Origin: an uncultured Caryophanales bacterium
GTDB taxonomy: Bacteria > Bacillota_I > Bacilli_A > RFN20 > CAG-826
NCBI GenBank assembly: GCA_937873795.1
Contig: CALMWE010000227.1
Span: forward strand, 1 to 32,507
Length of the DNA: 32,507 nucleotides
Direction: 5' to 3'
Shown here: piece by piece, positions 11,797-15,916 of the stretch
Position numbering within the stretch: the stretch's first letter is position 1
Layout of the letters: every line of letters starts with the position of its first letter
Made by a program: the position numbers and the translations under genes
The notes under the pieces: generated by a model
Seen by the model: the letters and a program-made list of their open reading frames with translations, nothing else
Told to the model about the DNA's origin: nothing
Databases searched by the model: none

Positions 11797-11825
11797 TTGA
11801 TAAAAATGAAGCCAAATGCTAGTAT
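11797..11825 (+). promoter_or_regulatory. Promoter for the DUF1836 gene (possibly with queT)
   Basis: TTGATA (11797-11802), 17-nt spacer, TAGTAT (11820-11825) preceded by TGC. Confidence 0.65.
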
Positions 11826-11849: not shown

Positions 11850-12509
11850 ATGGACAAACACGCAGAAGATTTAGGCCAATGGCTCCGTTCATTAAAAGAT
11901 TTTAACCTCCCCGAATATCAACAATTACCCGAAATTGACCTCTATATGGATCAAGTTCTTTCCTATATGGACAAACGTTTGGCACCCCTGGTTTCGACTC
12001 CCGGAGAACCCGCGATTACCTCCTTCATGGTGAATAACTATGTGAAGGCAAACTTGATTAATCCCCCAACCCTAAAAAAATACTCCCGCGTGCAAATCGG
12101 TTATCTGATTGCCGTCAGCAGCGTGAAACAAATCCTTTCGATGAGCGACATCAAGTTGCTCTTTGACATGGATAATCTTGTCAGTCCGGAAAAGGATAAG
12201 CTTTACAGTTTCTTCCGCGACGTTCATGATGAGATTCTTCACGATGTTGAAAAACAAGTGAACGCCAAATACGACATCATCATGCGCCGCTATAAAGAAG
12301 ACCTCGAAAAAGGCAACCCGCAAGCGGTTGAAATCTTGAGAGCAAATCTCAGTTATGTCGCATTCAAAATGTCCATTGAGGCGGAGATTAACAAGGTTAT
12401 TGCCGATCGCATCATTTTTGAAGTCGGAGAAAGTCTCAAAGAAGAAAAAGCGGAAGCGGCTCGATTGAGCGCGCTGGCCGAAACCCAAAAAGGGAAAAAG
12501 AAAAAATAA
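11850..12509 (+). CDS. DUF1836 domain-containing protein, putative MerR/HTH-like regulator
   Basis: N-terminal region SFMVNNYVKANLINPPTLKKYSRVQIGYLIAVSSVKQILSMSDIKLLF fits the DUF1836 pattern as I recall it. Confidence 0.75.
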   Translation: MDKHAEDLGQWLRSLKDFNLPEYQQLPEIDLYMDQVLSYMDKRLAPLVSTPGEPAITSFMVNNYVKANLINPPTLKKYSRVQIGYLIAVSSVKQILSMSDIKLLFDMDNLVSPEKDKLYSFFRDVHDEILHDVEKQVNAKYDIIMRRYKEDLEKGNPQAVEILRANLSYVAFKMSIEAEINKVIADRIIFEVGESLKEEKAEAARLSALAETQKGKKKK

Positions 12510-12516
12510 ACGACGA

Positions 12517-12564
12517 GAAGATGTTCCCTTGCCCAACCATCTTCGAAAACAACAAAACAAGGAG
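12517..12564 (+). promoter_or_regulatory. preQ1-I riboswitch (H-type pseudoknot, translational)
   Basis: P1 GAAGATG (12517-12523) / CATCTTC (12538-12544); loop ends AAC before P1'; A-rich tail GAAAACAACAAAA; P2 CCTTG (12527-12531) pairs with CAAGG (12558-12562), overlapping the queT SD AAGGAG. Confidence 0.88.
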
Positions 12565-12571
12565 ATTCCCC

Positions 12572-13063
12572 ATGAAAACGATGACTTTAAGGACCATTAC
12601 CGATAACGCCCTTGTGGCGGCAACCTATGTGGTCCTGACACTGTTAACTGCTAGCTTCGCCTATCTTGGCATCCAATTCCGGATTGCCGAGATACTCATT
12701 TTACTTTGCTTTTTCCGCAAAGATTTTATCTATGGATTATGCTTGGGAACATTAGTTGCCAACGCCTTAGGACCTTTAGGGTTTTATGACGTTCTTTTTG
12801 GAACTTTGGCAACGTTTCTCAGTGCGTTTTTGATCTCAAGAATGAAGAATCTAATCTTAGCCAGTTTATTCCCCGTGATCATCAACGGCTTGGTCGTTGG
12901 GGCTGAACTCTATTTTCTGCTCGGAGTTCCGTTTTGGATGAATGCCGGGCTTGTGGCGGTGGGTGAATTTGCCGTCGTCAGCCTCGTCGGCGTGGCCTTA
13001 TTTTCGCTGCTCAGAAGAAACCGTAAATTCCTCGAAGCCATCCGTGCGGAACAAAATTTCTAA
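12572..13063 (+). CDS. queT: QueT-family queuosine precursor transporter (ECF S-component)
   Basis: QFRIAEILILLCFF...YGLCLGTLVANALGPLGFYDVLFGTLATFLSAF is the QueT signature; start set at ATG 12572 after AAGGAG rather than the tracked 12521. Confidence 0.9.
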   Translation: MKTMTLRTITDNALVAATYVVLTLLTASFAYLGIQFRIAEILILLCFFRKDFIYGLCLGTLVANALGPLGFYDVLFGTLATFLSAFLISRMKNLILASLFPVIINGLVVGAELYFLLGVPFWMNAGLVAVGEFAVVSLVGVALFSLLRRNRKFLEAIRAEQNF

Positions 13064-13076
13064 GATATTCATCTTA

Positions 13077-13085
13077 TGCTATAAT
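13077..13085 (+). promoter_or_regulatory. Candidate extended -10 promoter element for tgt
   Basis: TGCTATAAT; no convincing -35. Confidence 0.4.
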
Positions 13086-13099
13086 GACAACTACATTGA

Positions 13100-14232
<1,133 letters not shown>

Positions 14233-14233
<1 letters not shown>

Positions 14234-15264
14234 TGGATATTAACTTATTTGATTTTGATTTACCTGAAAAACTCATTGCCCAAACCCCGGAAAAGGTCCG
14301 CGACCATTCTCGGCTTTTGGTCGTGAATAAAGCGACACAGACCACCGAAGATAAACATTTTTACGATATCTTGGATTATCTTGTTCCAGGGGATGTTTTG
14401 GTCCGTAACGACACCAAAGTCATTCCGGCACGCCTTTTAGGCGTGAAAGAAGATACACACGCTCATGTCGAAGTGCTCCTTTTACGGCAACTTCACGGCG
14501 ATGTTTGGGAGTGCCTCGTGGGCAACGCCAAAACCGTCAAACCCGGCGTTCGCGTTGATTTCGGTGAAGGCAAATTGATTGCCGAATGCATCGAAGTTTT
14601 CGATGAAGGCATCCGCCACATGAAGATGATTTACGAAGGTATTTTCCTCGAAGTGTTGGAAACCCTCGGCAAAATTCCCTTGCCTCCGTATATCAAGACC
14701 CAAGTCAGTGACAATTCCCGTTACCAAACGGTGTACGCCAAAGTCGAAGGCAGTGCTGCCGCCCCGACCGCAGGCTTCCATTTTACGCCCGAGCTTTTTG
14801 AAAAAATCAAAGCCAAAGGTGTGACGGTAGTGGACGTTACTTTACACATCGGTTTGGGTACGTTCCGACCGGTCAAAGTCACCGATACCACTCAGCATCA
14901 TATGCATAGTGAATTCTATATTGTCTCGCAACAAACCGCGGACATTTTAAACCTCGCCAAAAAAGAAGGTCGCCGCATTATTTCGGTGGGCACGACCTCG
15001 ACCAGAACCCTTGAAGCGGTGTATCAAAAATACGGCCAATTCAAAGCCTGCAGCGGGGATACCGATATCTTTATTTCTCCGGGCTACAAATTTTTAGCGA
15101 TCGATGCCTTGATCACCAATTTCCATTTGCCGAAATCCACGTTATTGATGTTAGTCAGCGCCTTTGCCGGCCGCGAATTCATGTTACGGGTTTATCAAGA
15201 AGCCGTATCCAAACAATACCGCTTTTTCAGCTTTGGGGATGCGATGTTCATCTATGGCAAATAA
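14233..15264 (+). CDS. queA: S-adenosylmethionine:tRNA ribosyltransferase-isomerase
   Basis: [64 protein letters not shown]. Confidence 0.98.
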
Positions 15265-15916
15265 AATCAATTATTACGAACAATCTCTGAAAGAATTTGA
15301 AAGTTTGGGCAACCAACGCCCCAAGATTTTGGTTCATGCCTGCTGTGGACCTTGTGCGACGTTTCCGTTGATCTTTTTATCGCAACATTTTGAGGTCACG
15401 ATTCTTTTCAATAACTCCAATATCTATCCTAAAGCCGAACACGACCGCCGTTACGAAGAACTGCTCCGCTTGGTCAAAGAACTCAACGGAGAAGAACATC
15501 TTGATATTCATGTTCTGGCTAAGCCTTACGATAACGAAACCTACAACCAAGATTTGGAACCTTTCGCCGATGAACCCGAAGGCCTACATCGGTGTCGAAT
15601 CTGTTATGCTAAAAGAATGAACGAAGCCTACCAGTTCGCGTCCGAGAATGGCTTTCCGTGGTTTACCACGGTGATGACCATCAGCCGTCAAAAAGACTCG
15701 CAAATCCTCAATCAAATCGGTGCGGCTTTGCAACACCGTTATCCCAACACCCGTTACTTCTTCAGCGATTTCAAAAAAAATAAAGGCATCGACATTGCCC
15801 GCGAGATGCGTCTGGAACACCATTTGTATCAACAGCTTTATTGCGGTTGCAAATACACCTACGCCAAAGGCGAAGAGAAAAAACGCGCTTTGGAGAAAGA
15901 TGACTATGAGGGATAA
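15254..15916 (+). CDS. queH: Epoxyqueuosine reductase QueH (DUF208)
   Basis: [59 protein letters not shown]; start at ATG 15254 ([10 protein letters not shown]), overlapping queA by 11 nt. Confidence 0.93.

Follow-up and report, generated by a model that had tools for sequence, protein, structure and literature searches.

The window, by which we mean the whole 32,507-nucleotide stretch of DNA that was analysed, carries on its forward strand a DUF1836 gene (11850..12509; Pfam E = 2.8e-26), followed by queT (12572..13063), which encodes the substrate-binding component of an ECF transporter (PF06177), and then by tgt (13109..14233), queA (14233..15264) and queH (15254..15916), the last encoding epoxyqueuosine reductase; tgt, queA and queH were assigned with Pfam. 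A first-pass annotation had named queT as the gene under control of a preQ1 riboswitch, and Pfam QueT recognizes its product at E = 2e-38. Tgt puts preQ1 into tRNA. In the window genome, which is 93% complete, searches for QueF and QueD found neither, and QueC was represented only by a 37-position partial match inside a longer frame; imported preQ1 is therefore the expected substrate. This fits an organism that takes up preQ1 from outside and relies on Tgt, QueA and QueH for the remaining steps to queuosine. A TATAAT box at 13080-13085, between queT and tgt, suggests that tgt–queA–queH may have a promoter of their own.

The DUF1836 gene lies upstream of queT and is probably co-transcribed with it; a promoter-like site is present ahead of it, at 11797-11825. 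Its stop codon (12507-12509) is separated from the element described below by 7 nt, not by the 8 nt given in the first-pass annotation. A terminator-like site was looked for at the DUF1836–queT junction and none was found. In another locus of the same genus (L099), the DUF1836 gene before the switch looks frameshifted, either by assembly error or by decay.

Anatomy of the element upstream of queT

Directly upstream of queT is a 48-base element in which, on direct reading of the window sequence, all of the bases cited earlier are present. The hairpin P1, formed by GAAGATG (12517..12523, where covariation in relatives supports it) and CATCTTC (12538..12544), was verified base by base over 12517-12544, as was its loop ending in AAC. 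The inner 5 bp of P1 (AGATG) are the part kept as a stem in relatives, and the top pair is G-C, the counterpart of Tte G5-C16. The 14 nt loop, TTCCCTTGCCCAAC (12524-12537), reads TTC-CCTTG-CCCAA-C. It starts with L1, UUC (12524..12526), of which U12524 is the counterpart of the U that follows P1 in Tte and Bsu; on explicit parsing of relatives, UU follows P1 in every member of the group with a CAAGG P2 strand. The next five bases, CCTTG (12527..12531), are the 5' strand of P2 and an anti-Shine–Dalgarno sequence, assigned by direct reading and by the parsing of relatives, with G12531 corresponding to Tte G11. They are followed by L2, CCCAA (12532..12536), and by the C directly before the 3' strand of P1 (P1'). 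This base, C12537, is kept in relatives and, by the rule of PMC11625349, we read it as the counterpart of the ligand-pairing cytosine, that is, of the 'AC' found in types II and III.

Beyond P1 the A-rich crossover L3, GAAAACAACAAAA (12545..12557), whose final 7 bases match Tte L3, leads into CAAGG (12558..12562), the 3' strand of P2 (P2'), for which relatives show compensatory changes. P2 thus comprises five Watson–Crick pairs and covers the AAGG of the queT Shine–Dalgarno sequence, AAGGAG (12559..12564), which is separated from the ATG at 12572 by the 7 nt spacer ATTCCCC; here too the earlier description proved correct. The likeness of the tail to the Tte aptamer, which had been proposed earlier, turned out to be an identity, since the 12-base tail AACAAAACAAGG is the same as that printed for Tte in PMC10639078.

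The P1 hairpin has a folding z-score of -2.8. A 76-nt stretch folded alone gave a z-score of -0.15, which is not significant; this is expected because the element is a pseudoknot, and nested folding is blind to P2. An ATG at 12521, within P1, is followed by no stop before queT (12521-12571) and would add 17 residues to QueT. We rejected it as an alternative start, as it is in frame here and out of frame in the same-genus locus L007.

Covariation and homologues

QueT homologues are present in 76 of 114 related genomes, and many of them are preceded by this layout with a P1 that differs. Because L1 varies in length, a MAFFT alignment of all forms displaced P1 by one or two columns, and covariation was therefore counted on a register-consistent subset and by explicit parsing. 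In the register-consistent alignment (14 sequences), 22 P1 cells are changed on both sides, as compared with an average of 7.7 in shuffles; the covariation score was reached by none of 500 shuffles, and sliding the P1 register reduced the paired share from 93% to 27-62%. Among the 58 elements parsed explicitly, P1 occurs as 20 different stems; 96 of their 100 cells are paired, against a shuffle maximum of 83. In the same 58 elements, seven sequences have C-G in place of a U-A pair of P2 (CCC(A)UG/CAGGG), one has G-C (UCUGG/CCAGG) and two have a U-U mismatch; these counts are descriptive. P1 covaries strongly and P2 shows two kinds of compensatory change, though covariation in P2 rests on few events because P2 is almost invariant within the CAAGG group. 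The top pair of P1 is G-C in all 58 parsed elements, L3 is A-rich, and an A precedes P2' in 56. AC precedes P1' in 58 of 58, partly by construction since the parsing patterns, drawn up once the elements had been looked over, required it; the covariance model matches show AC too.

In two sister forms P2 is enlarged by a single base, at a position common to both: CCU(C)UG/CAAGG (L119-L142) and CCC(A)UG/CAGGG (L045, L055, L057, L059, L062, L063 and L065). A fixed-rule motif scan missed such bulged-P2 forms.

Searched at E up to 0.05 with a model whose only structure is P1 (R1), 77 of the 224 genomes of the family gave matches. Among the 65 matches of at least 27.2 bits, 55 lie before QueT, nine before Vut_1 (PF02592) and one at a contig edge, four of the nine Vut_1 neighbours having been tested in Pfam and five judged by sequence. 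The 11 weaker matches (<27.2 bits) precede neither QueT nor Vut_1. Two of three Vut_1 proteins score with TIGR00697, the NCBIfam model for queuosine-precursor transporters, below its cut-off, and the third gave no match. About half of the QueT genes of the family are without an R1 match, and the switch is therefore not universal there. In a sample of 392 Bacillota genomes the element was found in 36, with 18 matches outside the family; 17 of these 18 were assessed, and 14 precede QueT, two Vut_1 and one a radical SAM gene followed by queT. The gene that follows the switch in locus L175 encodes a radical SAM protein of weak RaSEA similarity, possibly a queuine-salvage enzyme, and overlaps queT.

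A second model (R2), built without the genus of the window, recovered the element in the window with 34.0 bits (E = 2.3e-7). On the whole genome it was the sole significant match (E = 1.1e-5; next best 0.16). Strong RF00522 elements were not recognized by R2, so that the two forms are separate in sequence. On these comparisons we regard homology as decisive that the element exceeds chance.

QPTR (PF02592) and QueT/QrtT are the sole characterized families of queuosine-precursor transporters (PMC11130926), and that a single RNA form precedes two unrelated proteins doing the same job is strong evidence for its ligand. An alternative is that the hairpin at the DUF1836–queT junction has no ligand and reflects translational coupling or chance. 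The gap of just 7 nt, the in-frame ATG at 12521, which could serve reinitiation, and the weak single-sequence folding score would be in keeping with such a hairpin. We nevertheless consider it extremely improbable, given conservation of the element across the class before both transporter families, its occurrence immediately behind promoters, where the transcript contains no gene ahead of it, the invariant loop bases and the loss of the ATG 12521 frame in L007. A preQ1-I-type switch, as first proposed, is thus supported by the comparative evidence, namely covariation and homologues before queuosine-precursor transporters, and preQ1 would be what it binds.

The switch-bearing Vut_1 transporter genes (L098, L103-L106, L109-L111 and L114) are always followed by a short-chain dehydrogenase gene. 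Its product ends in MTGEDxLIDNGExxKSNFxW; in L110 and L114 it is cut off by the end of the locus.

The blind spot of RF00522

The match to Rfam RF00522 that the first-pass annotation had anticipated did not materialize. With its gathering cut-off (39 bits) RF00522 returned nothing for the window element; relaxing the search to E up to 10 gave a best match of 11.6 bits, in which the wrong bases were aligned as the loop. The models of the preQ1-II and preQ1-III classes (RF01054 and RF02680) gave no match to the element at E up to 10. RF00522 likewise gave no match, at E up to 10, to the crystallized type III element of E. coli yhhQ (L155:4170-4212); Rfam 15 is without coverage of type III. In the sample of 392 Bacillota genomes RF00522 passes its cut-off in 14, and it does so at none of the 36 places where the homologues lie, three of which show below the cut-off. 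The only structure in RF00522 is P1, with loop and tail driven by sequence, and an altered P2 would lose most of the score. Because the validated E. coli type III element and all 36 homologues are missed as well, the negative result is uninformative and does not refute the assignment; after calibration on E. coli yhhQ and the 392-genome sample we dropped RF00522 as arbiter. Under standard annotation, many small-genome Bacillota living on scavenged preQ1 would appear unregulated.

Type I-like (UC) preQ1-I elements, for example GACAGTTCGAAACCATCCTGTC, precede queT in another family of the same order (L067, L070, L074-L077 and L079). Four of these (L067, L076, L077 and L079) were scored with RF00522 and fell short of its cut-off, at only 20-27 bits.

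Proposed control of queT and comparison with known preQ1-I riboswitches

With a probability of about 0.9, we read the element as a preQ1 riboswitch of the class I type, falling under type II by the AC rule, that would repress translation of queT when preQ1 is abundant. This reading builds on the anatomy of the element, its conservation, the covariation of P1 and P2, the association with queuosine-precursor transporters and the pathway encoded downstream. We envisage that preQ1, when plentiful, inserts itself between P1 and P2, where it pairs with C12537 and stabilizes an H-type pseudoknot. The 5-bp P2 (CCUUG/CAAGG) would then bury four of the six Shine–Dalgarno bases and keep queT translation from being initiated. 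At low preQ1, P2 would open, allowing queT to be translated and preQ1 to be imported for use by Tgt, QueA and QueH.

The ligand is presumably preQ1. The same aptamer fold could in principle bind preQ0, queuine or another 7-deazaguanine importable by QueT-family proteins, as the substrate differs between QueT/QrtT and QPTR proteins (PMC11130926) and the L175 homologue precedes the RaSEA-like radical SAM gene and queT, the former of which could act in queuine salvage. We think this very unlikely, since Tgt, QueA and QueH are encoded in the window genome, which is without QueF, QueD or a radical SAM homologue of the L175 type, a gene set for which the usable import would be preQ1, and since the comparable pocket positions match those of Tte and Bsu.

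Control is similarly inferred to be translational. Bsu, likewise of type II, controls termination (PMC11625349), and an action of the window element on transcription or mRNA stability, rather than by ribosome blocking, has to be weighed. We judge it very unlikely, because P2' is the Shine–Dalgarno sequence itself, 7 nt from the ATG, because a search for a terminator-like site between the aptamer (P1) and the queT start codon found none, and because the overlap with the Shine–Dalgarno sequence is kept in relatives. There the element has one of two settings. It opens the mRNA, with a TATAAT-like box a few bases ahead of it, or it lies 0-10 nt beyond the stop codon of a preceding PRPP-synthetase-like gene (prs), gatB or DUF1836. 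The switch and queT directly follow the PRPP-synthetase-like gene in several genera (L085, L087, L093-L097 and L101), and gatB in L100 and L113. With the 7-nt gap, the lack of terminator-like sites and the intra-operon position in relatives, translational control within a longer mRNA is the best reading, and the DUF1836–queT co-transcript suggested at first remains plausible. Repression by preQ1 would then likely fall on the translation of queT alone within this transcript. In Listeria, translational repression by preQ1 has been demonstrated for a queT switch of type I (PMC12519234).

The element shares with class I its short P1 hairpin, a P2 formed by loop and 3' tail in an H-type pseudoknot, the C before P1' and the association with genes for queuosine synthesis or salvage. 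AC before P1' denotes type II or III and UC type I (PMC11625349), and the window element has AC. Type I is excluded on this ground; its members (Can, Listeria queT) also control translation of queT, but have UC and bind two ligands. With type II (Tte and Bsu) the element has in common the H-type pseudoknot, the G-C top of P1, the U after P1 and AC before P1', and with Tte also the G-C ceiling pair (Tte G11-C30), the A before P2', the A-rich L3 and the identical tail; queT has been reported as a target of type II. It differs from Tte, in which two of four P2 steps are canonical and two Shine–Dalgarno bases are buried, in having five consecutive Watson–Crick P2 pairs that cover four such bases, a longer L3 and a P1 of 7 bp.

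The type III element of E. coli yhhQ, known from a crystal structure and binding with a KD of 58 nM (PMC10622847), resembles ours in UU after P1, AC before P1', a pyrimidine-rich loop, Watson–Crick occlusion of AAGG and a long variable linker, and some homologues of the window element precede QPTR (YhhQ-family) genes, which places a preQ1-I switch before such transporters in Bacillota. We rejected type III, however, as L2 is 5 nt (CCCAA) rather than 3 and the loop 14 nt as against 9 in E. coli (PMC10622847). P2 moreover has the type II G-C pair at its end, and reports of type III come almost exclusively from Pseudomonadota, whereas the window form occurs in Bacillota, mainly before queT. Although the RF00522 score of the window element lies far below the cut-off, the loop layout of that element, UUC + 5 + 5 + C, recurs in a strong RF00522 match with AC (L177), where the loop ends in AAAC.

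The assignment to preQ1-I, type II by the published rule, is well supported by these sequence features, as is its place as an unlisted variant within an established riboswitch class; we call the form variant because type II AC and pocket features and a 5-base L2 are combined with a Shine–Dalgarno cover and UU that are type III-like. Whether it amounts to a separate, uncatalogued subtype in several families of one Bacillota class, with a type II pocket, a fully Watson–Crick P2 burying the Shine–Dalgarno sequence and control of both QueT and QPTR, is a more tentative matter, to which we would give somewhat less than even odds, its novelty being judged from the published type rules; the published type II consensus is an alignment of 521 sequences. 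In mixing features that separate types II and III, the pocket and the depth to which the Shine–Dalgarno sequence is buried, the form offers a natural test of their independence.
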